Shown: one piece after another, positions 15,076-31,484 of the stretch | How positions within the stretch are numbered: position 1 is the stretch's first letter | Layout: every line of letters starts with the position of its first letter | From: Fischerella sp. CENA71 | Lineage (GTDB): Bacteria; Cyanobacteriota; Cyanobacteriia; Cyanobacteriales; Nostocaceae | Assembly: GCA_024239075.1 (NCBI GenBank) | Contig: JANBVI010000032.1 | Coordinates: forward strand, 62,001-126,000 | Length of the DNA stretch: 64,000 nt | Direction of reading: 5' to 3' | The notes under the pieces: generated by a model | Told to the model about the DNA's origin: nothing | What the model saw: the letters and a program-made list of their open reading frames with translations, nothing else | Database searches by the model: none | Translations under genes and position numbers: made by a program

Positions 15076-17298
15076 CTATCCTTTAATTTTTCTCACAGAA
15101 GAAGAAGTCGGCACCGAGTTATTTCTGTCGTCTGTGTCATCGTCATCACCGACACGTTCTACGCTCATGCTCTGTCTGTAATATTGCTGATAATAGCTAT
15201 AGGAAGGAGGTGCAGCGTCTCTTGATTTGTTGGCTACCAAACCTAACAAGGGTGTGCCGGATATTTGTAGCTCTTCCAATGCTTGTTGGAAGACGGTACG
15301 CTTCAACTTACCTAAACCAGCAACTAACACCATACCATTGGTGTTAGCTGCCAATAAAGTTGCATCCGCAAATCCAACTAGGGGCGGTGTGTCATAAATT
15401 ACTAAATCAAAACTACTATGTAGGTCTTGCATCAAGTCCTGCATTTTTTGAGATGCGAGTAACCTGATTGAGTCTGGGGGAATAGGGCCAGCAGAAAGGA
15501 CGTAGAGATTGTCTTCGATAGGCGATCGCTCAATCACGTTGCTCCAGTCTAAATCCGAAGAAATAACGTCAGTTAATCCCTGAATATTCATTAATCCTAC
15601 CCGTTGGTGTAGGTTGGGAGAACGTAAATTTGCATCTACAAGCAAGACTCGGTGTCCCATTGCTGCTGCTGCTAAGGCTAAATGGACAGCAACCGTTGAT
15701 TTGCCATCTCCTTGCCCTGCGGAACTGATGACTAGTGAACGAATCGGTGTATCAGAACCTAAAAGCAGAATATTGGTGTAAAGAGAGCGAAATACTTCAA
15801 AAAATGAAGCGCGAGTTGCTTGCTGCAAACCACTAGAAGTATTACTTACATTTGTGGAAAGAGCTATTTCTTTTCTTAAAGGAACAACTCCTAACAATGG
15901 GAGTCCGATGGTTTCTTTGAGTTCCTTAGATGTGTAGAAAACATTACTGAGTTTATCAACAACTAAAGCCGCTCCTACACCCATCAGCAAACCTAACATT
16001 CCTCCCAATAGTAGATTTCTCTTAGCGCTATCTGAGATGGCGTCAGGTTCACTCACTTTTGTCAATTGAGGATCTAGTAATCTCCAAGGTTGTAATCTTT
16101 GAGCATACTCGATTTGTAATGCTTGTTGCTTGGCTGAAAATTGGCTTAAGCCTTCGGTGGCAATTTTTAATTCTCGCTGAATATTATCGTAATCGCGACT
16201 AACTGCTGCTAAAGCTCGCAAATAGCCATTGAGATTATCTATTTTCTCAGTAATAGCGACATCACGGGCTTCCAACTCCCGGATACGGCTTTGAAAATCT
16301 CTGTTTACTCGCGCTCTTTCTCCTTCCAAGATGGAAATCATACTGTCTTTCTGTTGGGAAAGGCGCACCATCCCTTCTTCTTCTTCAGTAAATATAGATC
16401 CTCTTTTGGCAATGTCCGCATTCGTTTGCTGAAGTTGATCAAGAATTTTTTGATAGCGGGGGTTATCACTGAGGAGAGAATTACTTGCTGATGCACCTGG
16501 TTGTTGCGACAACTCTTTTTGTAAGTCCTGATACTGAGCTCGCATTTGTTCTAGACTCACACGATTTTCTAGTTGCTGCTGCGTCAGTGTGGCAACATGA
16601 CTAGAGACTTCCTGCGCTTTTTGTGCTGGCTCAACTAAATTATTCTTTTGTCTAATGGTTCGCAGTCTTTCCTGCCAATCTTGGACTCGTTGTTCTAATG
16701 GCTTTCTTTGTTTTTCTACAAATTGAATTGCCTGTTCAACGTCTTTACGGCGCTCTGCTAAACTGTACTCCAGATAAGCATTTTTAACGGTGTTTAACAA
16801 ATCAGTTACTAACTGCTGATCTGGATCTATGTATTGAACTTCTAAAATATTTTGCTCTTTAGGCTCAATCACTAAGTTGTTAATTACATAGTCGTATTCT
16901 ATTTCTGGGTACTTAGTCTGAAGCTTTTTGATGACTGGCTCTAGTACTCCACGACTTTGCAAAACTGCGATTGTTGTCTTAATTTGCTCACTCGTCTCTG
17001 GAGCGGCGATCGCGTCTTTGCTATCTCCTATCGTTTGAGGAACATTAGCTATAGCCTTACTCTCACCAGTCACAGGCTTTGTTAAAATTTCAAAGCTGCC
17101 TTGATATATTGGTGGGTCAGTTTCTGCTTTTAATACCCCTGCGGTTGCTACTAAGCTAGTAGCACCAACTATTAATAATGCTCGCCGACGAAGAGCTGCT
17201 CCTACTTGACCTAAATTTAATCCGCCTTCATCAGCATCATTTAACTGAGCAGAATTGGCTGTTAACAACGGGTGATGATATTTGTCTGATTTCAGCAT
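15076..17298 (-). CDS. Wzc/GumC-type polysaccharide co-polymerase with BY-kinase domain
   Basis: Controls chain length and export of exopolysaccharide through a tyrosine autokinase. The N-terminal half has a membrane helix (RRRALLIVGATSLVATAGVL), a Wzz-type periplasmic domain with long coiled coils (about residues 150-400) and a second helix (LLLGGMLGLLMGVGAALVV). The C-terminal half is a CpsD/BY-kinase with Walker A AGQGDGKST near residues 527-535, VLLVDANLRSP and VIYDTPP. It ends with a Tyr cluster (YSYYQQYYRQ), the usual autophosphorylation site. I start at 17298 because the additional upstream 24 codons of the open frame are encoded by gaattca repeats. It ends convergent to the coiled-coil gene. 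Confidence 0.88.
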   Translation of the reverse strand: MLKSDKYHHPLLTANSAQLNDADEGGLNLGQVGAALRRRALLIVGATSLVATAGVLKAETDPPIYQGSFEILTKPVTGESKAIANVPQTIGDSKDAIAAPETSEQIKTTIAVLQSRGVLEPVIKKLQTKYPEIEYDYVINNLVIEPKEQNILEVQYIDPDQQLVTDLLNTVKNAYLEYSLAERRKDVEQAIQFVEKQRKPLEQRVQDWQERLRTIRQKNNLVEPAQKAQEVSSHVATLTQQQLENRVSLEQMRAQYQDLQKELSQQPGASASNSLLSDNPRYQKILDQLQQTNADIAKRGSIFTEEEEGMVRLSQQKDSMISILEGERARVNRDFQSRIRELEARDVAITEKIDNLNGYLRALAAVSRDYDNIQRELKIATEGLSQFSAKQQALQIEYAQRLQPWRLLDPQLTKVSEPDAISDSAKRNLLLGGMLGLLMGVGAALVVDKLSNVFYTSKELKETIGLPLLGVVPLRKEIALSTNVSNTSSGLQQATRASFFEVFRSLYTNILLLGSDTPIRSLVISSAGQGDGKSTVAVHLALAAAAMGHRVLLVDANLRSPNLHQRVGLMNIQGLTDVISSDLDWSNVIERSPIEDNLYVLSAGPIPPDSIRLLASQKMQDLMQDLHSSFDLVIYDTPPLVGFADATLLAANTNGMVLVAGLGKLKRTVFQQALEELQISGTPLLGLVANKSRDAAPPSYSYYQQYYRQSMSVERVGDDDDTDDRNNSVPTSSSVRKIKG

Positions 17299-17891
17299 AG
17301 CTTTAGTAAACTTAACTACATTCCTCACAAAAATAATCGGGAATTCAGAATTCAGAATTAATAAAGTCAAAAATAAAAGCCCGCAGTTTGATCATGATCA
17401 CATAGATTATCTAGATCATCAAATCAACAAAATTTTTTCTGTTTCGGTGTCCCCTATTTTAATAGTGAGGTGATTCTAAATACTGAATTCCTTATTCTGA
17501 ATTTGTTGTCACCCTGTCTCAAGTATGAAAAATGCTCGTCAATATGGAGCGATGCACTAGATATACCAATATTTCTCGGATAAGTACATTTGATTCTACT
17601 TTATGTAGATGGAGAAAAGTCTAATACTCAAGGGATAAGATCAATATCTGTTCCCTCTGCCTTTTGCCTTTTCCCCTCAACCGAGAAGTATTGCTATACA
17701 TACACAGTAACATTACGTAAGACATATTGGCACTTTCATCTAGATATTCAATCAAGATGTATGTTACTTATAAATCTTTTATACTCTACTAGGTAGCGAT
17801 CGCTCACCTAGATTAGGTCTAAACCAGAGCAGCCCATAGCTAATAGCCTACAATTTATTACTAGCTACAGTCAGCTTATCCCTTATGTAAA
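17299..17891. other. Intergenic region upstream of the co-polymerase gene
   Basis: This 593-base stretch has gaattca heptamers (17338-17362) and AT-rich sequence. It presumably contains the promoter of the minus-strand Wzc-like gene. No coding potential is supported. Confidence 0.5.
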
Positions 17892-18543: not shown

Positions 18544-18870
18544 ATGCCTTTTAGTCGGTCAGGGATTAACCTCAGTGTTATTTATGACTTCGTCATGCAA
18601 TTGTTCTTCACGACACCGACGTTCCAAAAGCATAAAATACATGACTTTCGAGGATTTGTTTGTGGGCAGGACTATGTATTTGAGCCTGTAGATGGTTTAA
18701 AAAAAGGTTATATGACAGCCCAGCGTAAAGGCGTCAAGCGTGGCGACTGGATTATTTTAGAAAATGATAGTCGCTTTTATCAATATCAAGTTGAGGAAAT
18801 TGATTACTACTCAGAACCACCTGATATGTGGATAGCTTTACTGAGTCAAGCTGTAATTGATAATTTTTAA
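18544..18870 (+). CDS. Hypothetical protein
   Basis: This 108-residue protein is not recognised. It is polar and aromatic-rich toward the C-terminus (YQYQVEEIDYYSEPPDMWIALL), with a small beta-type segment (GVKRGDWIILENDSRFYQYQV) that resembles a short barrel. It has no membrane segment. A second in-frame ATG at 18595 (MQLFFTTPTF) could be the true start; neither start has a good ribosome site. It lies 600 bases before the lasso locus and need not be part of it. Confidence 0.55.
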   Translation: MPFSRSGINLSVIYDFVMQLFFTTPTFQKHKIHDFRGFVCGQDYVFEPVDGLKKGYMTAQRKGVKRGDWIILENDSRFYQYQVEEIDYYSEPPDMWIALLSQAVIDNF

Positions 18871-19470: not shown

Positions 19471-19785
19471 ATGAACTTAAAAGCAGTAGAGCGAAAAATT
19501 TCAGAAAATTCAATCATCCTGGCATCTAGTGAGCAAATTTCCTCTGATCTGGGAGGTGAAATTGTGATTCTCAATTTGAAATCAGGTATGTATCACGGAA
19601 TGAATGAGGTAGGATCGCGGATTTGGAATTTGATTCAAACACCCACAACCGTGAAAGATATTAAAGCGGCGATTTTGGCAGAGTACGAGGTCGAAGCCGA
19701 ACAGTGCGATCGCGATTTGCTTGCATTGCTTGAAGACCTTCTAGCTGCGGAATTAATAAATATTCAAAATGAGGCTACTGTTTAA
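19471..19785 (+). CDS. Lasso peptide B1 protein, PqqD-family RiPP recognition element
   Basis: B1 binds the leader of the precursor peptide and presents it to the B2 protease and cyclase. The 104-residue protein has the PqqD/RRE winged-helix fold signature: GGEIVILNLKSGMYHGMNEVGSRIW (conserved beta strands and the N-x-x-G-x-x-I-W region), then a C-terminal helical segment (LLALLEDLLAAELI). It is the first gene of the operon and overlaps B2 by 17 bases, so the two are coupled. The B1 and B2 functions are on separate proteins, as in paeninodin-type clusters. Confidence 0.9.
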   Translation: MNLKAVERKISENSIILASSEQISSDLGGEIVILNLKSGMYHGMNEVGSRIWNLIQTPTTVKDIKAAILAEYEVEAEQCDRDLLALLEDLLAAELINIQNEATV

Positions 19786-20209
19786 ATTTTTGAGGTTTGA
19801 TGCAGGCGATCGCCACTTATTGATCATGACTCTAATTTTACTAGCGGCTATACGCCTGGGGCTGTGGTTACTGCCGTTTCGCACCCTCTTAAAAGTGTTA
19901 GCAAAAATCAGTCAACCAATCCACCCCCAAGTTACAAACCAAATATCCATCGGCAAAATTGTCTGGGCCGTAAACGTAGCTAGTCGTTATCTCCTTGGTG
20001 TCAAGTGTTTAGCTCGTGCTTTGACTACGCAAGTCCTCATGAATCGGTACAGTCACCCTTGTCAATTACGTATTGGTGTCGCCAAAGACGAGTCAGGAAC
20101 TCTAGAGGCCCATGCTTGGATAGAACATCAAGGAAAGATTGTAATTGGCAATCTTAGTGATCTTTCTCGCTTCATTCCCTTGCCAACGCTAGAAGGAGTC
20201 AAGTTATGA
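19769..20209 (+). CDS. Lasso peptide B2 protein, transglutaminase-like leader peptidase
   Basis: B2 cleaves the leader from the precursor. The 146-residue protein has an N-terminal hydrophobic segment (about residues 17-36) and the cysteine-protease core of lasso B2 proteins: Cys80 in GVKCLARALTTQVLM and His115 in AHAWIEHQGKIVIG. An Asp in the NLSDLSRF segment (residue 131) may be the third catalytic residue. Its start codon is inside the end of B1, and its stop overlaps the ATG of the cyclase by four bases. Confidence 0.92.
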   Translation: MRLLFKFLRFDAGDRHLLIMTLILLAAIRLGLWLLPFRTLLKVLAKISQPIHPQVTNQISIGKIVWAVNVASRYLLGVKCLARALTTQVLMNRYSHPCQLRIGVAKDESGTLEAHAWIEHQGKIVIGNLSDLSRFIPLPTLEGVKL

Positions 20210-22233
20210 GTGGGATGATGGGAATTTACTATCTTGATGGCCGTTCTGTAGACAAGCAAGACCTGGAAAAGATGGTAAATACTCTATCTCATCGTGGTCC
20301 TGATGGTGCAGACATCTGGCATGATGGGAATCTAGGTTTTGGCCATAGAATGTTGTGGACTACTCCTGAATCCCTACTAGAAAAGTTACCTCTAGTCAGT
20401 CAAGCTGCTGATTTAGTCATTACAGCTGATGCTCGTATTGACAACCGAAAAGAATTATTATCCATATTACAAATCAATGATTGTCCACACGAGAAAATTA
20501 CGGACACTCAGCTAATATTGGGTGCTTATCAAAAATGGGGAGAGCTATGTTCGGAGCATCTGCTTGGTGACTTTGCCTTTGCTATTTGGGATAAAAAAAA
20601 GCAAACACTTTTCTGCGCTAGAGACCATTTTGGGGTTAAGCCTTTTTACTACTACTATCAATCAAGTCAAAAATTTATATTTGCCTCAGAAATCAAGGCA
20701 CTGGTATGTTTGCCACAAGTGCCACGCCATCTCAATGAGGTTAGGATTGCTGACTACTTGGCATTGATGATGGAAGACCAAACTATCACCACTTATAAAG
20801 ATATACTGCGACTTCCTCCTGCTCATAGTATGGTGATCAGTAAATCAGGAATACAGCAATGGTCTTACTGGTCACTTGACCCTGAGCGTGAAATTCATTT
20901 AGCTGATAACGAAGCTTACGCCAAGGAATTTCGGCAAATATTCACACAAGCAGTAGAATGTCGCTTGCGTAGCGCCTTTCCAATCATCAGTCAACTGAGT
21001 GGTGGCTTGGATTCTTCTGCTGTTACCTGTGTAGCACGGAACCTACTTGCTGAAGCCGGAAAAACCCCACTAAACACCATTTCAACTATTTTTGACAAAA
21101 TTACTGAATGTGATGAGCGTCCCTTTATCAAGGCTGTACTAGAACAGGGAGGATTTATTCCTCACTACGTTCATGGTGATGAGTTTGGTCCCTTGTCCGA
21201 TCTAGATAGTATTTTTCAGTACGAAGATGAAGCTTTACTAGGTCCAAGTCATTTCTATCCTTGGATGGTTTATCGGACTGCGAAAGAACTGGGAATGCGG
21301 ATTTCCTTGGATGGTTTTGATGGTGATACTACGGTTAGCCATGGTATAGCTAGACTCACCGAACTAGGACGTCAGGGTAAGTGGAAAACTCTGATTCAAG
21401 AGGCTAAAGCTATTGCGGTACACCATAATGTTTCGCCATACACAGTATTTCGCGGTCATGGGTTACCATATCTCCAGGATTTGGTAAAGAAGTGGCAATG
21501 GATAGAGTTTGTTAAAACCGTACAGTTGATTCATAAGCATTTTGGTGTTTCCCGGAAATTGTTGATTATCAATTACGGAATTAAACCTTTCTGGGAACAA
21601 ATACGACTATTTTGGAGGAAAAAAAACAGACAAAAAACATTTCTTGATTCGTCTTTGCCTGAGAATCCTTTAATTAAGCGTAACTTTGCGAAACGAATTC
21701 GTCTAGATGAACGGATTCAAACGTTAGATCCTCCATGCAAAGCGCCCCTGAGCTTAAGAGAGGAACATTGGCGTAGTTTAACTCAAGGAATACTAGCCTA
21801 CACCCTAGAACAGATGGATCAATATGCAGCTATGTTTTCTTTGGAAGTTCGCCATCCTTTCATGGATAAGCGACTCATAGAATTTTGTTTAGCATTGCCT
21901 TCTGAACAAAAACTATATCAAGGATGGGGGCGGATGATTATGCGTCGTGCTTTAGAGGGTATTCTACCGGAGACAATACAGTGGCGTGGTGGAAAAGCAG
22001 ACTTGTCACCAAACTTTAACAATGGATTACTCAACCGCGATCGCCAAATTCTCGATCAGGCGATGTCTCAAAAAATCAAACACCTGGACACATACATTAA
22101 CTTAGATTTTCTGCAAACAGCTTATCAACGTATACTCTCCGCAGATAATCAAGCCAGCAATGATGATTGGATGGCAGTTTGGCAGGCAGTCATCTTAGCA
22201 TCATGGCTGGACTTTAAAGGGTTGGCACCCTAA
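20206..22233 (+). CDS. Lasso peptide cyclase, asparagine synthetase-like (C protein)
   Basis: Activates the Asp or Glu side chain of the core peptide with ATP and closes the macrolactam ring onto the new N-terminus. The 675-residue protein has an N-terminal class II glutamine amidotransferase-like domain (LSHRGPDGADIWHDGNLGFG, GDFAFAIWDKK, ARDHFGVKPFYY). The PP-loop ATP pyrophosphatase domain has SGGLDSS near residues 265-271 and EVRHPFMDKRLIEF later. The protein begins MSGMMGIYYL: the Cys2 nucleophile needed for glutaminase activity is absent, as in lasso cyclases, so it does not use glutamine ammonia. Confidence 0.94.
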   Translation: MSGMMGIYYLDGRSVDKQDLEKMVNTLSHRGPDGADIWHDGNLGFGHRMLWTTPESLLEKLPLVSQAADLVITADARIDNRKELLSILQINDCPHEKITDTQLILGAYQKWGELCSEHLLGDFAFAIWDKKKQTLFCARDHFGVKPFYYYYQSSQKFIFASEIKALVCLPQVPRHLNEVRIADYLALMMEDQTITTYKDILRLPPAHSMVISKSGIQQWSYWSLDPEREIHLADNEAYAKEFRQIFTQAVECRLRSAFPIISQLSGGLDSSAVTCVARNLLAEAGKTPLNTISTIFDKITECDERPFIKAVLEQGGFIPHYVHGDEFGPLSDLDSIFQYEDEALLGPSHFYPWMVYRTAKELGMRISLDGFDGDTTVSHGIARLTELGRQGKWKTLIQEAKAIAVHHNVSPYTVFRGHGLPYLQDLVKKWQWIEFVKTVQLIHKHFGVSRKLLIINYGIKPFWEQIRLFWRKKNRQKTFLDSSLPENPLIKRNFAKRIRLDERIQTLDPPCKAPLSLREEHWRSLTQGILAYTLEQMDQYAAMFSLEVRHPFMDKRLIEFCLALPSEQKLYQGWGRMIMRRALEGILPETIQWRGGKADLSPNFNNGLLNRDRQILDQAMSQKIKHLDTYINLDFLQTAYQRILSADNQASNDDWMAVWQAVILASWLDFKGLAP

Positions 22234-22284
22234 TTTTCACAACTTGGCAAATGTGGATTTACAGACACTTTTAACATTATAGTC

Positions 22285-22305
22285 ACCGTAAATCCAATTA
22301 GCCGG
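22285..22305 (+). promoter_or_regulatory. Repeated 21-base element upstream of precursor 1
   Basis: The element accgtaaat-caa----ccgg lies 75 bases before the precursor 1 start. A matching copy of equal length is at 22878-22898, before precursor 2. It may be a promoter or regulatory element, by inference only. Confidence 0.4.
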
Positions 22306-22359
22306 TTGCATCACCAGAAATTTGAAGAAAATAGGCTAAACATCAAAGGAGTTACAGCG

Positions 22360-22572
22360 ATGAAGAAAACCTATATTGCACCAATGCTGATTGCACACGG
22401 CAATGTAGAAACAATCACTAACTTTTCTGGCAAACAGACACGGAAGGATTTCGTATTCTTCAATGGTGATAACAATGTTGGTCTTTCTGGACCAGTAAAT
22501 ATTAATGGTAGTCTGGGTTCGGAGGACTTTTTTGCGGCTCCATGCAAGGAAAATCCAAGTAAATGTCAATAA
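22360..22572 (+). CDS. Lasso-type RiPP precursor peptide 1
   Basis: The 70-residue peptide begins MKKTYIAPMLIAHGNVETIT. It carries the lasso leader signature Y-x-x-P-x-L with Tyr5, Pro8, Leu10 and Gly14, ending with Thr20. If Thr20 is the usual leader Thr at position -2, the core starts at Phe22. It then has Asp30 at position 9, suited to a nine-residue macrolactam. Starting instead at Gly24 would put the same Asp at position 7. The tail is about 40 residues, with Cys62 and Cys69, ending in Gln70. The start is supported by aaagga ten bases before the ATG; an upstream in-frame Met at 22306 has no such support. Confidence 0.88.
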   Translation: MKKTYIAPMLIAHGNVETITNFSGKQTRKDFVFFNGDNNVGLSGPVNINGSLGSEDFFAAPCKENPSKCQ

Positions 22573-23023
22573 TAGTCATTACATAGTTGGTAGCAAACTA
22601 GATCCATCACACTGGATAAATGAATGTCACTGACTTAAGAGCCTGGAAGCAAATTGTTCGATGTAAATTACTTGAACTCATAGCCGTACGCTTAGTGGCT
22701 AACCACTTGTCGCTTTTAGTGGGCTTAAGTAAGTAACACTAGCCTACATGCTGACAATATTTACTGTAAATCTTCTTAGGTTTGCAGATTAGATGATCAG
22801 CATGTAGTCTTATTCAGTCTCCAATATTGGCAGGTTGTAGTTTAGGAAGTTTGGTATAGATCATTCACTATGAAAATACCGTAAATTCAAGTTTCCGGCA
22901 GACTTTGGTTACAGATAAGGCAATATCTATAACCACTAAGCTACGCCGTAAGTCCAATCAAGGTGTTCTACCTTCAACAACTACTACATACATCAAATTT
23001 ACACTCAAAATAGGAGATAGATC
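22573..23023. promoter_or_regulatory. Intergenic region between the two precursor genes, with hairpin
   Basis: 451 bases without a gene. At 22744-22807 an 11-base stem, ctacatgctga/tcagcatgtag, encloses a 42-base loop region with a small inner stem (aatct/agatt). It is not followed by a T run, so it is more likely an RNA-processing or regulatory hairpin than a terminator. The 21-base element recurs at 22878-22898. Confidence 0.5.
22878..22898 (+). promoter_or_regulatory. Repeated 21-base element upstream of precursor 2
   Basis: Second copy of the accgtaaat-caa----ccgg element, identical in length to the copy at 22285. Here it lies 146 bases before the precursor 2 start. Confidence 0.4.
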
Positions 23024-23218
23024 ATGAAAAGTGCATACAGCACTCCCAAACTCACTGCTCATGGTGATATTGCTGAAATTACACAAATTCTTGGTAGTTC
23101 AAGCAGAAAAGATTTTCTCTTTTTCAATGGTAATTCTATATCTGGGGGTGATGATATCGGTTCGAGAGATATAAATTGCACTAGCAACGGCGGTAACTTA
23201 AATTGCAACACCCAGTAG
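23024..23218 (+). CDS. Lasso-type RiPP precursor peptide 2
   Basis: The 64-residue peptide begins MKSAYSTPKLTAHGDIAEIT, with the same leader signature at identical positions (Tyr5, Pro8, Leu10, Gly14, Thr20). The predicted core starts at Ile22 and again has Asp30 at position 9, in an RKDFLFFNG block shared with precursor 1 (RKDFVFFNG). The tail, rich in Gly, Ser, Asn and Asp, has Cys52 and Cys61 and ends in Gln64. The ATG follows taggaga at the right distance. A terminator lies 200 bases after the stop. Confidence 0.88.
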   Translation: MKSAYSTPKLTAHGDIAEITQILGSSSRKDFLFFNGNSISGGDDIGSRDINCTSNGGNLNCNTQ

Positions 23219-23580
23219 TTTTACCAGCTAAATCTGGACTTTCAACAGTGGAAACTATTTGACCCGATGCAGACAAAAACAACATCAAATTTGGTTTTTT
23301 TGTGAAGCGATTAAGCTGAACTAATACATAAAAAACCTCACTCTTGGTGTTGTAATTAATAGATAGCTCACTAAGAGCGAATTTTTCCCTAAAATAAGGA
23401 AAAAAGCACAATTTTATAGGTTGGTTGAGGTTACAAAACTCAACCATTTTTCCTTTTGTTTTAATACCGTTACATCCAACCTAATGTTGCTTATTATTTA
23501 AGCTTGTAATTGCATAGATACATATGCTTGATTAATTTGTTTTAAATATATTTTCAAATTGCATTTCATCAAACTAAAAT
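23219..23580. other. Intergenic region between precursor 2 and kinase
   Basis: 362 bases, AT-rich, with no gene. It holds the intrinsic terminator at 23423-23455 and presumably a weak promoter for the kinase gene. Confidence 0.5.
23423..23455 (+). terminator. Intrinsic terminator after the precursor genes
   Basis: The stem ggttgag/ctcaacc with a nine-base loop is followed by atttttccttttg. It would end or attenuate transcription after precursor 2, leaving kinase, exporter and nucleotidyltransferase at lower expression. Confidence 0.65.
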
Positions 23581-24513
23581 ATGAAATTCTTTAAAGCTTA
23601 CAACTTGTGTATTGCTTCTGAATTGCCACTTCCTGAACTGATTGAAACTGAGGGTGAACCAGATGTAATTGTGCGGTTTGGCAAAATAGATGATGTAAAC
23701 ACAACGCAACATGATAGTGGCAAAAATTTTGTTGGAGAAATACCCGAAGTATGTAAGTGTTTGATTCAAGGCGGACGGGAAATCGTTATCAATCCTTTAC
23801 CCAATGTAGATGAAGCTCTGCTACGTACTGTACTTTTAGGTCCTATATTGTGTGTTCTCCTGCGACAAAGGGGTTTGTTGGTTCTACATGCTAGTTGTAT
23901 TAGCATCAATCACAAATGTGTGGCATTTATGGGTGGTTCTGGTTGGGGAAAATCGACCTTAGCTACTGCTTTTCACAACCAAGGCTACGATGTTTTAAGC
24001 GATGATGTTATGCCCATCCAAATAACAGCAGGGAAAGTGTTGGTATTACCTGCCTATCCCCAATTTAAAGTGTTTCCAGAAGCTTTGAGTTCTTTGGGAC
24101 ACGATACCAAAAAGTTATCGCCAATTTACCAAAATGCATCAAAACTATCATACAGATTTACTCGTGGTTTCCAGCAAACTCCACTACCGCTACAGCGAGT
24201 TTACGTGTTGAATAAGGGAAGTGAACATCTAATTACTAAAATGCAACCTCAAGAAGCATTTGTAGAATTAATACGTCACACTCGTGCTATTAGTGTACTA
24301 ACAGAAAAAGAGTTTCTTGCTAACCATTTACGTCTTTGTAGCGAGTTAATTAAAAGTGTAAGTTTTTGCCGCTTCACTCGTAAACCTTCCTTGGAAGATT
24401 TGCCAAATTTAGTGAAGTTGGTTGAGGATGATATTGCCCGATTGACAGCACCAAATGATAGTCATAATAATCTTAAAACTTCCTCAGATTATTCTTTTGC
24501 TACCAAATCTTGA
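23581..24513 (+). CDS. HPr kinase-like protein of lasso cluster (K)
   Basis: The 310-residue protein carries a P-loop GGSGWGKST (about residues 117-126), preceded by LVLHASCIS. SDDVMPI follows and PAYPQFKVFPEA comes after that, the layout of the HPr-kinase C-terminal domain family found in RiPP clusters. The known homologues in paeninodin-type clusters phosphorylate the C-terminal Ser of the precursor. Neither precursor here ends in Ser, so the substrate residue must differ or another step is involved. It overlaps the exporter gene by four bases (ttga), which makes them one transcriptional unit. Confidence 0.85.
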   Translation: MKFFKAYNLCIASELPLPELIETEGEPDVIVRFGKIDDVNTTQHDSGKNFVGEIPEVCKCLIQGGREIVINPLPNVDEALLRTVLLGPILCVLLRQRGLLVLHASCISINHKCVAFMGGSGWGKSTLATAFHNQGYDVLSDDVMPIQITAGKVLVLPAYPQFKVFPEALSSLGHDTKKLSPIYQNASKLSYRFTRGFQQTPLPLQRVYVLNKGSEHLITKMQPQEAFVELIRHTRAISVLTEKEFLANHLRLCSELIKSVSFCRFTRKPSLEDLPNLVKLVEDDIARLTAPNDSHNNLKTSSDYSFATKS

Positions 24514-26372
24514 ATTCACAGGGTCTTGATAACTTGAAGAGCAAATTTCGTAGTGCAAATACTATACTAAATCATTTAATTAAAACTCTAAGTCTTGTCT
24601 GGGCGGCTTCTCGATACTGGACTTTAGCTTGGATGATAATGTTATTAGTGCAAGGATTACTTCCTGCTATTTCCATTACTTTTACTCGTCAGGTAGTTGA
24701 TAATCTAGTAGTAGTTGCTGGAAATGGTATTTCTGGGGCAAGTATTCAGAAGATTTTGATTCCAGTGGCATTTATGGCAGGTATCATGCTGTTGGGAGAG
24801 TTTTTAAATAGTTCTGGAGAATGGATTCGCACTGCTCAATCAGAATTAGTAAATGACCATATCACGGCTTTGATTCATGAACAGTCAGTAGCTGTAGATT
24901 ATGGTTTTTATGAATACTCAGAATATAATGACAAACTCAATCGCGCCAGAGAAGGAGCAAGCGGGCGATCGCTAGCATTGTTAGAAAGCATTGGGAGTTT
25001 GTTGCAAAATAGTGTCACATTGTTGGCGATGGCAACAATCTTAATTCCTTACGGTCTTTGGCTACCTACAATATTAATTATTAGTGCTTTTCCTGCGTTT
25101 TACGTATTGATGTATCTCAGCAAAATTCAATATCAATGGTCACAAAGGACAACTACTGACCGTCGCTGGCTGATGTATTATGATTATCTACTTACAAACA
25201 GTTCTACAGCCGCAGAAGTACGATTATTTGATTTTGCTAATTATTTCCAATCTTCTTACCAAATTTTACGTAAACGACTTGTCAAAGAACAATTTCATTT
25301 ATTAAAACTACAAACTATAGGTCGCTTTGTTGCCGCCATTATTGCACTGCTCATTACTGGTGGGGCGTTAGCTTGGATGGGACGGCAAGTATTACTCGGC
25401 ATTCTAACTTTAGGAGATTTAGCTCTATTTTTCCAAGTATTTAATCAGGGACAAGGTATTGTTAAAGAGTTATTGAGCAATATCGGAAAAATTTATCGTA
25501 ATAGCTTATTTATCGGTAATTTATTCGAGTTTTTACAGATACAGCCCACAATTGTAGATCCTGAAAATCCAGTTTCTATACCTAGAAAACCTCAAAAAGA
25601 AATTCGATTTCGACAGGTCAGTTTCCGCTACCCTGGTACTACAGAAGCTGTCTTAGAGAATTTTAACCTGACGATTCCTGCTGGCAAAATTGTGGCGATC
25701 GTTGGTGATAATGGTGCAGGCAAAAGTACACTAATTAAGCTTTTGTGCCGTTTTTATGATCCTGAGTCAGGAAGAATTGAATTAGACGGTATCAATTTGC
25801 GTGATTTCGCTGTCAAAGAACTCCGTAGATTAATTACTGTTTTATTCCAATCTCCAATTCCTTACTACACCACAGCAGGTGAAAATATTGCTCTGGGAGA
25901 TATCACAGCAGTATCAAATCAGACAGAAATTGAATCCGCAGCGCAAGCCTCCGGTATTCATGATAAAATTATGCGCTTACCCTTGGGTTACAACACCATG
26001 CTAGGTAAGTTGTTTCCTGATGGAACCGATTTAAGCGGGGGTCAATGGCAACGTCTAGCGCTAGCACGAGCATTTTTCAGACGCGCTCAAATCATTATAT
26101 TAGATGAACCTACAAGTGCTATGGACCCCTGGGCTGAATACGACTGGTTAGAACGTTTCCGTACCTTAGCAGAAGGTCGTACTGCTGTTGTGATTACTCA
26201 CCGTTTTACTCTGGCGATGCAGGCGGATATTATTCACGTGATGCGTGCTGGTCGGATTGTGGAGTCCGGGAATCATGAACAACTATTGACTTTAGGCGGA
26301 CTTTATGCTCAGTCTTGGCAAGCACAAATGGAGTCCAGTTCGAGTCAGAAAGTTGAAAACAGAATTGCTTAA
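24510..26372 (+). CDS. ABC transporter, permease and ATPase fused (lasso exporter D)
   Basis: The 620-residue protein is a half-transporter. Its N-terminal membrane domain has several helices (about residues 35-300), and the C-terminal ATPase has Walker A GDNGAGKST near residues 400-408, signature LSGGQ near 508 and Walker B IIILDEP near 530. No N-terminal C39 peptidase domain is present, so leader removal must be done by B2. It starts at a TTG that overlaps the kinase stop. In this context it would export the mature peptide and may provide immunity. Confidence 0.9.
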   Translation: MNSQGLDNLKSKFRSANTILNHLIKTLSLVWAASRYWTLAWMIMLLVQGLLPAISITFTRQVVDNLVVVAGNGISGASIQKILIPVAFMAGIMLLGEFLNSSGEWIRTAQSELVNDHITALIHEQSVAVDYGFYEYSEYNDKLNRAREGASGRSLALLESIGSLLQNSVTLLAMATILIPYGLWLPTILIISAFPAFYVLMYLSKIQYQWSQRTTTDRRWLMYYDYLLTNSSTAAEVRLFDFANYFQSSYQILRKRLVKEQFHLLKLQTIGRFVAAIIALLITGGALAWMGRQVLLGILTLGDLALFFQVFNQGQGIVKELLSNIGKIYRNSLFIGNLFEFLQIQPTIVDPENPVSIPRKPQKEIRFRQVSFRYPGTTEAVLENFNLTIPAGKIVAIVGDNGAGKSTLIKLLCRFYDPESGRIELDGINLRDFAVKELRRLITVLFQSPIPYYTTAGENIALGDITAVSNQTEIESAAQASGIHDKIMRLPLGYNTMLGKLFPDGTDLSGGQWQRLALARAFFRRAQIIILDEPTSAMDPWAEYDWLERFRTLAEGRTAVVITHRFTLAMQADIIHVMRAGRIVESGNHEQLLTLGGLYAQSWQAQMESSSSQKVENRIA

Positions 26373-26414
26373 CAAACTGAAAATCATAGACTTCTATCAA
26401 TTGAAGAAAAGCAA

Positions 26415-27545
26415 ATGCAAACTCTACCAAAATTAAATACCGAGATTTTAGGTGTAAATGTTTCCCCGGAAATGCAGCTACTGCTTTGTTGTGCTTCCAC
26501 TCAAATAGATGTAGCCAAAACTGAGCAAATCAAAAGTTTGATTCAACAAGCAGATTTAGACTGGCAAAAGATTAGCAGTAGTGCATGGAAACACGGTTTG
26601 ATGCCACTTTTGTATACTAATTTGAATGCGATCGCACCAGATACTATTCCAAAAGATGTTCTCAATCAACTTCGCAATCTTTTCTACACAAATGCTCAAC
26701 GCAGTTTAATGCTGACTGGGGAACTTGTACAACTCCTGCGCCTATTGCAAGAAAATGGAATTTCAGCTGTTCCTTATAAAGGGCCTGTTTTAGCAAATTT
26801 ATTATATGGAAATATTGGACTGCGTCAGTTCTGCGACTTAGATATATTGGTGCAACAACAAGATGTCTTAAAATTCAAAACCCTGCTCATGTCCAGAGGA
26901 TACAGGCCAAAAGTTCAATTGACAGAAGCTGAGGAAATTAATTATTTAAAAGATAAAAGTAAGCATACTTATAACTTTATAAATGATAGCAAGGGAATAA
27001 TGGTGGAAATTCATTGGCGAATTACACCACGCTATACATCTGCAATTGAAGTCAAGTATGTTTGGGAAAATCTCCATTCATCTAGCCTTGGCGGCATGAA
27101 AATCTACACTTTCTCTTTAGAAGATTGGTTACTATTACTCAGTAACCACGCATCAAGACATCGTTGGGAAAAGCTCAGTTGGTTAACTGATATTGCAGAA
27201 TTACTAAGACAGAATCCCGAAATTGATTGGGAAAAAGTAATGCAAAAAGCTAATGATTTTGATTGTAGAAGAATGCTTTTTCTTGGTCTTTTTCTCACAC
27301 ACCAGTTAATAGGAATAAATTTACCAACAGAAATTATTAACAAAATTACTAATGATCAGAAAGTTGCAAAATTAGCTTCAGAAATTTCTCTAGATATACT
27401 TAATCAAACTAATAATAATCAAAAATTTATGCAAAATACTCGCTATCATATTCAGGTAAGAGAGCGTTGGCAGAATAAGATTTTGTACTTAGAGTTATTC
27501 TGGCGGTGGTTAATCAGAGATAAAAGTGTTTTACTCGATGAATAG
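26415..27545 (+). CDS. Nucleotidyltransferase-family protein of lasso cluster (N)
   Basis: The 376-residue protein has the motif block PYKGPVLANLLYGNIGLRQF followed by CDLDILV (residues about 119-146), the G..LA..LYG..R...D-x-D pattern of the NTP_transf_5/DUF-type nucleotidyltransferase family, and later EIHWRI. A protein of this type (PadeN) is a known component of paeninodin-type lasso clusters. Its reaction is unsettled. It lies 42 bases after the exporter gene and ends the operon, convergent to the polysaccharide cluster. Confidence 0.82.
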   Translation: MQTLPKLNTEILGVNVSPEMQLLLCCASTQIDVAKTEQIKSLIQQADLDWQKISSSAWKHGLMPLLYTNLNAIAPDTIPKDVLNQLRNLFYTNAQRSLMLTGELVQLLRLLQENGISAVPYKGPVLANLLYGNIGLRQFCDLDILVQQQDVLKFKTLLMSRGYRPKVQLTEAEEINYLKDKSKHTYNFINDSKGIMVEIHWRITPRYTSAIEVKYVWENLHSSSLGGMKIYTFSLEDWLLLLSNHASRHRWEKLSWLTDIAELLRQNPEIDWEKVMQKANDFDCRRMLFLGLFLTHQLIGINLPTEIINKITNDQKVAKLASEISLDILNQTNNNQKFMQNTRYHIQVRERWQNKILYLELFWRWLIRDKSVLLDE

Positions 27546-27607: not shown

Positions 27608-29002
27608 TTATGTTTCAGCCTTTAATTGTCTGTCTGCTTCTATATCCAATTGTGCATGATAAAAGCGCGAGTACCTCAAAATTTGCAACTCGTGCCATCG
27701 CATACCAATTAGCATAGCCATTGAAAGCATATAGCCAGGTTCTTCTAGCTGAGTGAAAACGAAACCATAAATCAACACAGTCAGCATTGTAAATTTGCAA
27801 AAGTCATCCAAGCAAATTCGACGCCAGACTATAGACGCCAGATATAAATAAGCTCCTAAACCTGCAAATCCAAAATCCCCCCAAATACCAGCCCAACTCC
27901 AAAGCGGAGCGAAAAAGCTAGAGTCTAACCAAGAAAATTCACTCCAAGCATCCCAAACAGCCTGACTAGCAGGATGGGTAGTAGCACCCAATGGTTTTAA
28001 TAAAAATGAGTAGTCCTTTAACATCCATCCGCCTAATCGTCCAACTGTGTGACCTGGGCCAAGACCAAGCAACCAATTTAAAGATGATTTATAAAATGTA
28101 GGAATAATTCTAATTGGTGCTAACTTAAGTAATGTTGCTTGACCATCAGGACCATAAAGGTCTGGTCTAATCCAAGTATTAAAAGCACTAAATGCTTCTA
28201 CATTTTGTATGCACCACCACAGTCCGTAACTTATTAAAATTGCAGCGATCAAATACTGTATGGTTTTTCTGAGGTCTTGTAATTTAATCATGATCAGTAT
28301 AAACCAAGCTAGTAGCCAAACTAAAAGCACCTGTTTAGCGTCTGCAAATAATAACTGAAAAAAGGCAGCAACAATCATGGAAGCTCGTAGCAACATCGGA
28401 GCAGTCTTGGCACTGATTAAATAATACAAACCAAAGGACATAGATACAGAAGCAGCCACAACATGACCAGAGCCTGTAAGATAGAAAACTCCTTGAACAT
28501 TGTCTGTTGGTTGCATTTCAGTGACATTCAAAATGCCGACAGTGATCAGAAAATGCTGGGCAATAGCTAAGAAAATATGAAAACAACCGAAGCGTAATAT
28601 CCAAGTTCTAAATTTTTTAAAGCTTTCTTGAGAAATAGGAATACAAATTATTGCCAGTAAGACTAGAAATGGCTCACTCAGCAACATTAACGATAAGAAT
28701 ATATTAATTAGCCCAGCTTTATTTAAAAAGGCGCTGGCGGTCATCATTCCTAGTAGAATTAAAAAACCAAATAGAAGTGCTTTAGCAATTGAAATTTGGT
28801 TTTTATTTCTTACCTTAGTTTTAGTGATTACAATTCCACAAGCGATGGGAACGATTACGAAGTGAACAAAATTGATAGGTGAGGGGAAGCCAATAGAATT
28901 AAGAATCCGGGGGAAAAAAGCAGTAGCAAAAGCTAGTATGATCAGAAACGAATTTTTAATGTATCCTTCTTGTTTTTTGTAAACTCCTATCCCAGCCTTC
29001 AT
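27608..29002 (-). CDS. O-antigen ligase/polymerase-like membrane protein
   Basis: The 464-residue protein has about ten to twelve membrane helices and a large hydrophilic loop before the last helices (KLAPIRIIPTFYKSS ... LGLGPGHTVGRLGGWMLKDY), the profile of the Wzy/WaaL O-antigen ligase and polymerase family. No conserved motif distinguishes polymerase from ligase. It is the last gene of the minus-strand polysaccharide cluster, 18 bases after the preceding glycosyltransferase. Confidence 0.75.
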   Translation of the reverse strand: MKAGIGVYKKQEGYIKNSFLIILAFATAFFPRILNSIGFPSPINFVHFVIVPIACGIVITKTKVRNKNQISIAKALLFGFLILLGMMTASAFLNKAGLINIFLSLMLLSEPFLVLLAIICIPISQESFKKFRTWILRFGCFHIFLAIAQHFLITVGILNVTEMQPTDNVQGVFYLTGSGHVVAASVSMSFGLYYLISAKTAPMLLRASMIVAAFFQLLFADAKQVLLVWLLAWFILIMIKLQDLRKTIQYLIAAILISYGLWWCIQNVEAFSAFNTWIRPDLYGPDGQATLLKLAPIRIIPTFYKSSLNWLLGLGPGHTVGRLGGWMLKDYSFLLKPLGATTHPASQAVWDAWSEFSWLDSSFFAPLWSWAGIWGDFGFAGLGAYLYLASIVWRRICLDDFCKFTMLTVLIYGFVFTQLEEPGYMLSMAMLIGMRWHELQILRYSRFYHAQLDIEADRQLKAET

Positions 29003-29020
29003 CTATCCCCCTGAATTTAC

Positions 29021-30196
29021 TTAATTTTTGCAACCAAAGTTTTGGATTTTGGTATAAAATTCCATGAGTCTTTGGTAATTTTTCTGGGCTGTGTACTTTG
29101 CTTCAAACTCTGCCCTTGCTTCCTGGCGCATGTCAGCAAGTTTTGTTGGATTTGCTAAAATCCACTCTACCTGGGTGATTAAGTCATTTGCATCACCAGG
29201 ACGGAAATGAAGCCCAGTTCGACCAGAATCTACCAATTCTGCGACAGCACCGATATTGGCAGCAATCACGGGAGTGCCTTTAGCAAACGCCTCCACTGCA
29301 ACACGCCCAAAGGTTTCATACCATTTTGAGGGAAAGACTAAAAACATGGCTTCTCCCATAAAATCATGCACTTGTGACATTGGCCTGCGTCCTAGCCATT
29401 CTATATGGGAATGTCTTTTGACAGCTGCTACTACTTCGTGAGCTAAAGGGCCATCACCCACAATTTTGAGAGGTATTTGTATACCGAGATGTTCCCAAGC
29501 TTTTAACAGGGTATCTAAACCCTTTTCCACAGAAAGTCTACCTACAAACAGAGCATAACCACCACTTCCGTTACCGATCGCAGGTTCGGGACTGACAAAG
29601 TTTGGTTTGACCACAATTTTATCTGCTGGCAGACCACCAGCAATAAATTTCTGGCGAGCAAATTCAGTCAGAGCGATGTATAAATCCACCGTCTTGACCC
29701 AAGTACTCATCAGTCTATGTACAGTCAGCATTGTAGCAACACCAACACTGGCTACTTTACTGTTGCGATAACAACCATGCAACACTCCTGGATAGGGAAC
29801 AGATAGCCCCAAGCAGTCTTCACAAATATTGCCTTCGCGGAAAAATAAAGCGTTGGGACACAGAAAACGGTAATTGTGTAGGGTCTGGACTACAGGTACT
29901 TTTTGTGCTTTGGCTGCATAGTAAACTGAAGGCGAAATCAGGGGAAAAAAATTCTGGACGTGAACGATATCACAGGGCTGTTGTTGTAACATATGCCTGA
30001 CAGTGTGATAGGCTTCATCTGACCAAACTGTTTTGGCGGCAACATTTAGCTTACTCAATTTGGCAACGCGATCGTTATTTTCTTCGTAGACATCAACTTG
30101 ATGCCCCATCTCTCGTAAAAGTTTAACCTCAGCCTCGTGGCACTCGTCTTCTCCGCCGCGAATCTGGTAGCTATTGTGGATACTTAGAATACGCAT
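29021..30196 (-). CDS. Glycosyltransferase family 4
   Basis: 391 residues. The GT-B fold is indicated by MRILSIHNSYQIRGGEDEC at the N-terminus and the donor-binding E-x7-E block ETFGRVAVEAFAKGTPVIAA. The N-terminal half has the Cys-rich CPNALFFREGNICEDCLG segment common in a subgroup of GT4 enzymes. It would transfer a sugar from a nucleotide donor to the growing glycan. Acceptor and sugar unknown. It is 22 bases after the next upstream gene (30219). Confidence 0.88.
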   Translation of the reverse strand: MRILSIHNSYQIRGGEDECHEAEVKLLREMGHQVDVYEENNDRVAKLSKLNVAAKTVWSDEAYHTVRHMLQQQPCDIVHVQNFFPLISPSVYYAAKAQKVPVVQTLHNYRFLCPNALFFREGNICEDCLGLSVPYPGVLHGCYRNSKVASVGVATMLTVHRLMSTWVKTVDLYIALTEFARQKFIAGGLPADKIVVKPNFVSPEPAIGNGSGGYALFVGRLSVEKGLDTLLKAWEHLGIQIPLKIVGDGPLAHEVVAAVKRHSHIEWLGRRPMSQVHDFMGEAMFLVFPSKWYETFGRVAVEAFAKGTPVIAANIGAVAELVDSGRTGLHFRPGDANDLITQVEWILANPTKLADMRQEARAEFEAKYTAQKNYQRLMEFYTKIQNFGCKN

Positions 30197-30218
30197 ACGA
30201 GGTTATTTCCACAATAGA

Positions 30219-31484
30219 CTAGTTAGAGTTTAGTAAAATCGGTTCAGTCTGAGGAGTGCGACGTCCGGCAATTTCTTCATAGAGTTGAGCGAGAACTGCA
30301 CCCATCACTTCTCGGTCAAACACCTCTTTGACCCTGGTTTGGGCTGCTTGGCTCATTTGACTTCTCAGTTCTGGATTTTGCGCTAAAAGGATCATGGCTG
30401 AAGCCAAATCCTGTGCAACTTGTTCAGGTGTGTGAGCAGGAACTTTAAAACCAGTGGCGGATGTAACTTGCACAGCCGGTCCTCCTAAATCCAGACACAA
30501 GACTGGACGACCTGCTGCCATTGCTTCCAAGCACACCCAACCACCAGAGTCGTGCAGGCTGGGGTGAACCAAGGCAATACAATCACTTAATTTTTCTAAG
30601 CTTTGCTCTCGTGGTAGCCTACCCCAAAATTTCACCTTTTCGGCAATTCCCAGTTTTTCAGCCAGGTGTTGCAGGTTTTGACGCTCAGGCCCATCACCTA
30701 GAATCCAGTACTCCGCATCTGGTAGATTAGCTTTGGCAAAGGCATGTAATCCGAGGTGAAAACCTTTCCAATGTAAGAGTCTACCCATACTAATAAATCT
30801 GACGGTAGAGTCAGTGGGCATAGGAAACTGAGCAAGATTGAGAATTTCTTCTTTGGGTAAACCTGATTCGCAAATCACTTCTACCTTATTAACACCCATT
30901 TTGCGAATACGTTTAGCTGTATCTTCTGTTGTGGCTCGGACTACAGCACTTTTTTTGGCAGTCATATGGACAAATGGATCAAGTTCACCCACACGACGAA
31001 TCAAGCTGCGTGCAGTTTCGTAAGCTTTGGCACGCAGACTAAAATCTTGCCAAAAAGCTTGTGGTGCAGATTCTCCACCACCTACTGGTCCCCAAATAAA
31101 AGGAACAGGCAAGAACGATAGGAAACTGGGATTAGAATATTTCACAAAGGTGACATGGTGAATAGCATCAAAACCGATTTGGCGATGCAGGCGACGGGCA
31201 ACAAAATATGCTTGAATTTGCCAAAGATAGTAGTGAATTTGCATCGCCCCTGATTGGTTCCAACGCCAGAGGTTTCCCAGGATAGGTAAATTGAAATATA
31301 CAAAGTGCAAGTTAGGGACTGGGTTACGAGCTAATTCTGCTTCAATAATGTCACCACTTTCATCAGGTCTAGTCAATACCCAGACCTCATGGTATTTGGC
31401 GACTTCTCGTGCAACACTCCAACCTACACCAGGCTCAGAACCCCTACCCGGCTCACATGAGTATGCAGATATCAGGATTTTCAT
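30219..31484 (-). CDS. Glycosyltransferase family 4
   Basis: 421 residues. The start MKILISAYSCEPGRGSEPGV and the E-x7-E-like block GGWVCLEAMAAGRPVLCLDLG mark the GT-B family 4 fold; the SCEPGRGSEPGVGW motif recurs in cyanobacterial exopolysaccharide clusters. Sugar specificity is not evident. Separated by 51 bases from the next gene upstream in transcription. Confidence 0.88.
   Translation of the reverse strand: MKILISAYSCEPGRGSEPGVGWSVAREVAKYHEVWVLTRPDESGDIIEAELARNPVPNLHFVYFNLPILGNLWRWNQSGAMQIHYYLWQIQAYFVARRLHRQIGFDAIHHVTFVKYSNPSFLSFLPVPFIWGPVGGGESAPQAFWQDFSLRAKAYETARSLIRRVGELDPFVHMTAKKSAVVRATTEDTAKRIRKMGVNKVEVICESGLPKEEILNLAQFPMPTDSTVRFISMGRLLHWKGFHLGLHAFAKANLPDAEYWILGDGPERQNLQHLAEKLGIAEKVKFWGRLPREQSLEKLSDCIALVHPSLHDSGGWVCLEAMAAGRPVLCLDLGGPAVQVTSATGFKVPAHTPEQVAQDLASAMILLAQNPELRSQMSQAAQTRVKEVFDREVMGAVLAQLYEEIAGRRTPQTEPILLNSN

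Follow-up and report, generated by a model that had tools for sequence, protein, structure and literature searches.

Published accounts describe the lasso peptide kinases PadeK, ThcoK, and SyanK as phosphorylating the hydroxyl of the C-terminal Ser on the linear precursor, and they report this Ser to be extremely conserved where a cluster has a homologous kinase gene (PMC9266682, PMC8498205). A His-Lys-Asp-Asp motif is common to the lasso kinases, and one or two hexoses on phospho-Ser are attributed to PsmN (PMC9266682). The same source describes lasso peptides with a tail-tail disulfide as class IV, and pandonodin has the longest lasso tail according to a 2026 review, 18 amino acids (aa) of 33 in total (PMC13352647). 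Cyanobacterial lasso peptides have been called underexplored (PMC9967302), and a 36-residue lasso peptide has been predicted in Cyanocohniella (PMC9332814). Here we analyze a lasso peptide gene cluster at 19471-27545 of a 64,000-nucleotide stretch from the cyanobacterium Fischerella sp. CENA71 (the window, whose first letter is position 1). The cluster has an HprK-like kinase gene (K) and two precursor genes, A1 and A2, whose products both end in Gln. In each of them, the candidate phospho-acceptor is an internal Ser within a G-S-x-D motif, followed by a long tail.

The cluster is real and intact and represents a common cyanobacterial lasso family, of which it is an ordinary member. Its unusual features are the shifted candidate acceptor and the long tail with two Cys, both widespread in this branch, and the internal acceptor would be the new part of our reading. 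The literature matches listed contained no account of a kinase or acceptor site for lasso clusters of cyanobacteria, and an earlier description is possible.

An internal serine motif in long precursor cores

Lasso leaders carry Thr at position -2, and the ring acceptor is an Asp or Glu at core position 7-9. Both precursors follow this anatomy with Thr -2 and Asp9. A1 consists of a 21-aa leader and a 49-aa core and A2 of a 21-aa leader and a 43-aa core, and both leaders read Tyr -17, Pro -14, Leu -12, and Thr -2. The start of A1 was taken as the ATG at 22360; the open frame itself extends upstream to a TTG at 22306. Precursors encoded beside cyclases of at least 670 bits look much the same: Asp stands at core position 9 in 103 of 109, Asp or Glu is found at positions 7-10 in all 109, the cores are 30-58 aa long, and 103 are without a terminal Ser, the other six ending in Ser. 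The precursor model NF033528 spans residues 1-35 only, with tail and acceptor outside it. Elsewhere in the same genome there were no lasso_cyano matches besides A1 and A2 (expect value, E, up to 0.001).

For the motif statistics we used 155 distinct precursors, identical ones having been merged. Of these, 142 lie next to cyclases scoring at least 540 bits (the 13 beside weaker cyclases were left out); they yielded 95 non-redundant sequences, 82 of them with a core longer than 30 aa. The pattern [GD]S.[DN] occurs in 61 of these 82 long cores (shuffled mean 9.8, maximum 20 in 2000 shuffles), and its narrower form GS.D occurs in 47 (shuffled mean 2.9, maximum 9 in 2000 shuffles). An unguided count of residue pairs ranked SxD (58/82), GxxD (51/82), and GS (67/82) highest by z, against means of 17.4, 19.6, and 30.9 in 300 shuffles. 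The motif Ser lies at core position 21 to 40, and at 25-28 in 30 of the 61 cores. A terminal Ser is present in 4 of the 61 cores with the motif and in 7 of the 21 without it.

A sister group, taken as a 25-row group of the kinase tree, has its last Ser elsewhere. Across its 25 distinct cores, this residue stands 0, 1, 2, or 3 positions from the end in 17, 2, 4, and 2 cases, which places it within the last three residues in 23 of 25 (shuffled mean 7.7, maximum 16 in 5000 shuffles). It occupies core position 24-26 in 12 cores, and in the other 13 it spans 19 to 48. With locus L183 included, the last Ser is at most three residues from the C-terminus in 25 of 26 cores; the L183 core, in which Ser24 is followed by six more residues, was removed by the bit filter of the sister-group count and sits among the 109 precursors instead. 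At L119, one precursor ending in ..LTFS accompanies two ending in ..LTFSGTF, with Ser24 in the same place in all three, which shows that extension beyond the Ser is possible. We read this as an acceptor Ser that moved inward as the tail grew, though the change may have run the other way.

The tails also show a regular Cys content. Of the 82 long cores, 42 have no Cys, 39 have two, and a single core has one, such that 81 of 82 have none or exactly two. If Cys were independent, the probability of at most one single-Cys core would be 2e-15 (Poisson, mean 0.96; sequence kinship is ignored in this estimate). Both Cys follow the motif Ser in all 33 cores that have the motif and two Cys, and A1 and A2 each have a tail of 16 or 17 residues beyond the motif Ser with two Cys in it. 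A tail-tail disulfide fits because of this parity and because both Cys follow the Ser, and the two Cys probably form one, as in class IV.

To place K in context, we used 128 cyclase anchors, which comprise the window, 17 named loci (L031-L047, those of at least 64% identity among 64 named loci listed), and stretches from further genomes. The anchors were not merged and are not independent, as named and other loci partly come from the same genome, and some stretches stop at contig ends. K is downstream of the cyclase at all 128, and no other lasso gene stands between them in 126. The exceptions are L136 and L174, where C is separated from the next K by another lasso gene; the L174 precursors keep GSxD though their cluster is without its own K before the next cluster.

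K itself is weak by profile, with 21.9 bits for Hpr_kinase_C (PF07475, E 1.4e-4) against a cut-off of 33.3 and 36 bits for HprK_rel_A (TIGR04352) against a cut-off of 200. Its catalytic residues His103, Lys124, Asp141, and Asp142 were matched by eye to the motif given in PMC9266682. Among 107 distinct kinases of these loci, the corresponding residues are conserved in 107 (His), 107 (Lys), 105 (Asp), and 106 (Asp), with five partial or odd kinase frames left out of the count. Foldseek matched the K model, which is weak (predicted local distance difference test score, pLDDT, 61), to PEPCK and HPr kinase chains. In a kinase tree rooted for drawing only, 62 of 64 kinases labeled as long-core belong to a single clade of 69 rows (support 99/98), and the 25-row group holds 18 of the 23 kinases labeled as C-terminal-Ser. 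Some K positions differ between the classes; residue 95, for example, is Arg in 58 of the 64 long-class rows and His or Tyr in 18 of 23 rows of the other class.

Table 1. Features of the lasso peptide cluster and its flanks, in window coordinates
Feature	Position	Strand	Evidence or remark
B1, PqqD-like leader-binding protein (RiPP recognition element, RRE)	19471..19785	+	PF05402 E 6.5e-21; NF033536 78.8 bits
B2, leader peptidase, transglutaminase-like	19769..20209	+	NF033537 115 bits (cut-off 33); PF13471 E 3.8e-22
C, lasso isopeptide-forming cyclase, Asn-synthetase-like	20206..22233	+	NF033535 (cyanobacterial lasso cyclase) 1086 bits (cut-off 525)
A1, precursor 1, 70 aa	22360..22572	+	NF033528 59 bits (cut-off 33)
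A1 Asp9, predicted ring-closing residue (macrolactam to Phe1)	22447..22449	+	sequence; family position statistics
A1 core Ser33 of GSED, proposed internal phospho-acceptor	22519..22521	+	sequence; motif statistics
Long RNA hairpin between A1 and A2	22741..22810	+	-30.6 kcal/mol, z -4.6, 0/200 shuffles as good
A2, precursor 2, 64 aa	23024..23218	+	NF033528 82 bits (cut-off 33)
A2 Asp9, predicted ring-closing residue (to Ile1)	23111..23113	+	sequence; family position statistics
A2 core Ser26 of GSRD, proposed internal phospho-acceptor	23162..23164	+	sequence; motif statistics
Stem-loop then U-rich run after A2, possible attenuator/terminator	23422..23446	+	-13 kcal/mol (whole stretch), z -2.4, 5/200 shuffles as good
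K, HprK-like kinase	23581..24513	+	HprK_rel_A E 3.6e-9, under cut-off; His103, Lys124, Asp141, Asp142
D, ABC exporter, TTG start	24510..26372	+	ABC_tran E 6.1e-32
N, nucleotidyltransferase-like protein (NTP_transf_5)	26415..27545	+	PF14907 223 bits (cut-off 31)
Wzz/ParA-type chain-length protein	15076-17370	-	upstream flank of lasso cluster
108-aa protein	18544-18870	+	upstream of lasso cluster; no Pfam or NCBIfam match (E up to 1)
Protein without Pfam match	27608-29002	-	downstream flank; glycosyltransferases next, block 27608-31484

Proposed maturation and competing explanations

Based on family membership and on the leader and core anatomy, we propose that B1 would bind the leaders of A1 and A2, that B2 would cut one residue after the conserved Thr at -2, that C would join residue 1 (Phe or Ile) to Asp9 in a nine-residue ring, and that D would export the peptides. 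K would phosphorylate the linear precursors as PadeK does, but on Ser33 of A1 and Ser26 of A2 within G-S-x-D. N may add a sugar or nucleotide to the phosphate, and the tail beyond the Ser would be retained, its two Cys probably forming a disulfide. Monoisotopic neutral masses calculated for the full-length lasso with disulfide are 4474.03 Da for A2 (4554.00 phosphorylated, 4716.05 with an added hexose) and 5246.46 Da for A1 (5326.43 and 5488.48). That K phosphorylates the internal G-S-x-D Ser and not a C-terminal one, with N possibly decorating it, to give long class-IV-like lasso peptides, is the explanation toward which we lean, if only slightly. A bolder version, which we consider quite unlikely, is that a large cyanobacterial branch has moved its acceptor Ser inward to G-S-x-D, the Asp at +2 perhaps replacing the carboxylate, that its disulfide-tailed peptides are longer than pandonodin, and that, in their exopolysaccharide setting, sugars placed by N on the phosphate could tie the peptide to the sheath.

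Several points weigh against an internal acceptor. The published lasso kinases are reported to be specific for the C-terminal Ser (PMC8498205, PMC9266682). The strict motif is missing from 21 of the 82 long cores; some of these 21 have GT.N, GS.S, or a one-residue-longer GS..D, and one has Cys replacing the Ser. The remaining five kinases labeled as C-terminal-Ser lie inside the long-core clade, and the support for the 25-row group (83/89) is not strong. The link between kinase clade and acceptor class may be plain co-inheritance without function, because the cyclase, judged by its bit scores, divides in much the same way as the precursor classes. Since K is downstream of every anchor, there is no kinase-free control. 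The K model is too poor for interpretation of the likely acceptor region, with pLDDT below 50 over residues 149-201 but for one residue. Only family membership and the sequence statistics are observed; the rest is inference.

An alternative that would leave K with a conventional target is that the residues downstream of the G-S-x-D Ser form a C-terminal follower. Its removal would leave mature peptides of 33 aa (A1; calculated mass 3453.71 Da, or 3533.67 phosphorylated) and 26 aa (A2; 2671.29 and 2751.25 Da) that end in Ser, with K acting before or after trimming. Ser26 of A2 does stand at the length where sister-group cores often have their last Ser, and with the 18-aa tail of pandonodin as the longest in the review (PMC13352647), untrimmed products of 49 and 43 aa would be unusual. 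However, the residue after the Ser is variable (R, I, V, E, K, L, T, Q, and others), which argues against a single protease site, and no protease besides B2 was seen in profile searches of the cluster proteins. The Cys parity and a DxxxxP pair (27/82; shuffled mean 10.6, maximum 20) further suggest that the tail is under selection. We regard a removed follower as unlikely, and in our judgment it would be an unusual step for lasso peptides. The motif could also be a structural turn, a lasso plug, or an export signal, with K modifying another residue or protein, an idea to which we assign a low, though not negligible, probability. Two helper residues (G and D) and the one natural Ser-to-Cys version are what a turn would allow. 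N was not found in 26 of 81 long-core stretches, some of which stop early, so N is not always needed. Yet the position is mostly Ser, with Thr in a few cores (GTLN, GTIN), as a phospho-acceptor would be, and the constant presence of K downstream of the cyclase, nearly always directly, also speaks against a purely structural motif.

It is very improbable that the cluster is silent or decayed and makes no product. The reading frames of all cluster genes are intact, and the ratio of nonsynonymous to synonymous substitution rates (dN/dS) against L031 and L046 lies between 0.07 and 0.23 for the genes B1, B2, C, K, D, and N; for A1 it is 0.13 vs. L046. For A2, on the other side, few changes make dN/dS uninformative (0.52 vs. 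L031, from three changes, and 0.18 vs. L046). If phosphorylation of the internal Ser is correct, the kinase and substrate rule reported in PMC8498205, of the C-terminal Ser only, must widen, and these kinases could be of use for internal tagging of long lasso tails.

Gene order, distribution, and surroundings

A preliminary description of this stretch had proposed B1, B2, a cyclase, two precursors, K, an exporter, and a nucleotidyltransferase on one strand, with short gaps or overlaps in the gene groups. Reading frames and profiles bear this out, with overlaps of 17 bp (B1/B2), 4 bp (B2/C), and 4 bp (K/D), a 42-bp gap between D and N, and wider gaps of 126, 451, and 362 bp around the precursors. 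The cyclase and both precursors pass the curated cut-offs of the NCBIfam cyanobacterial lasso families NF033535 and NF033528, and B1 falls 1.2 bits under the cut-off of 80 for the lasso-specific model NF033536. Profile searches placed neither B2 nor the kinase in an unrelated family, and precursors stand near these genes in relatives. The reading as a cyanobacterial lasso cluster with a kinase and a nucleotidyltransferase holds, but the label "paeninodin-type" does not extend to the precursors. We rejected PadeA-family membership for A1 and A2, given Gln and not Ser at the C-terminus and no NF033524 (lasso_PadeA_fam) match at E up to 1; the model was also silent in the control search meant for Firmicute PadeA clusters (0 of 1 and 0 of 392 genomes and none of 14 controls).

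The gene order had been described as a difference from known clusters. The order B1-B2-C-A-K-D-N is exact at 54 of the 128 anchors and the same without N at 27, for a total of 81, so the cluster follows the rule and is no exception; an unusual order was accordingly dropped as the finding. Two precursors are indeed present, but they are not a special feature, since 50 of the 128 stretches, some of which may contain two clusters, have at least two, and clusters have one to five. The product had also been called likely new; the family already has a name in NCBIfam, and its NF033535 cyclase is found in 84 of 218 genomes of the same taxonomic family (E up to 1e-150), including this genome and four others of the genus. 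Among genomes drawn from the whole phylum, 13 of 386 have it (E up to 1e-200). The nearest named relatives are Fischerella, with cyclase identity up to 95%. Two distant records, Halopiger and Antarctobacter, came up when plasmids were searched for the cyclase (E up to 1e-60).

Other lasso types were seen alongside this family. Another cyanobacterial type occurs at L122, L123, L127, and L131, where short precursors come in pairs (VGGSGGF-like cores) and the kinase-like gene lies at a distance. L132, L133, and L138 have orphan lasso-type precursors with no cluster gene found within a 17-kb stretch, and that of L133 has LTFS then three residues; these orphans are outside the counts.

Comparison with L031 suggests a change in the first precursor slot. 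Identity is 90% at 22351-22410 (leader), 13-50% at 22411-22830, and 97-100% at 22831-23190. The A1 core and 3' spacer (22411-22830) are replaced relative to L031 11023-12238, with the break near the leader/core junction. A2 differs from L031 by a synonymous rate (dS) of 0.025, an imprecise value from one synonymous change in 40 sites, and the enzymes differ by 0.22-0.29. The slot looks like an exchangeable cassette between close Fischerella genomes. Of the two RNA elements in Table 1, the stem-loop after A2 was not among the matches of a consensus terminator scan; consensus scans found about as many promoters (24 vs. 25.3) and terminators (6 vs. 5.7) as in shuffles. A similar CCGTAAATNCAA stretch precedes each precursor start, by 74 bases (at about 22286) and by 145 bases (at about 22879). 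It is present, too, ahead of some precursors in Fischerella relatives and in L174, with 8 of 155 upstream stretches having it.

The cluster is nested in an exopolysaccharide locus, and lasso clusters in several genera have the same setting. We sorted the other loci, one per precursor set, into an FF-core type and the rest, using thresholds of our own and counting upstream genes where there was enough sequence. Upstream, the chain-length protein occurs in 13 of 18 FF-type loci vs. 1 of 17 of the rest, and the 108-aa protein in 20 of 32 vs. 11 of 65 (31 of 97 in total). The downstream genes are kept in 23 of 33 FF-type loci vs. 7 of 52 of the rest. Vertical inheritance may explain much of these recurring surroundings; L118, a C-terminal-Ser cluster that adjoins the same two upstream genes, runs counter to this.

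Comparison with known lasso peptide systems

The cluster belongs to the NF033528/NF033535 family, with its cyclase and both precursors above the cut-offs and relatives that have the same gene order. It resembles paeninodin (PadeK) and pseudomycoidin (PsmK) in having an HprK-like kinase with His-Lys-Asp-Asp, a likeness set by the published motif. It also resembles pseudomycoidin in its nucleotidyltransferase-type gene N (PF14907), likened to PsmN by description only. It differs from both in its cores of 43 and 49 aa without a C-terminal Ser, its internal GSxD, and its two tail Cys. By description only, the predicted peptides of this cluster are like pandonodin (class IV, 33 aa) in their long tail with two Cys. 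Unlike pandonodin, however, they have longer predicted cores and a cluster with a kinase and a nucleotidyltransferase, and their disulfide is a predicted one.

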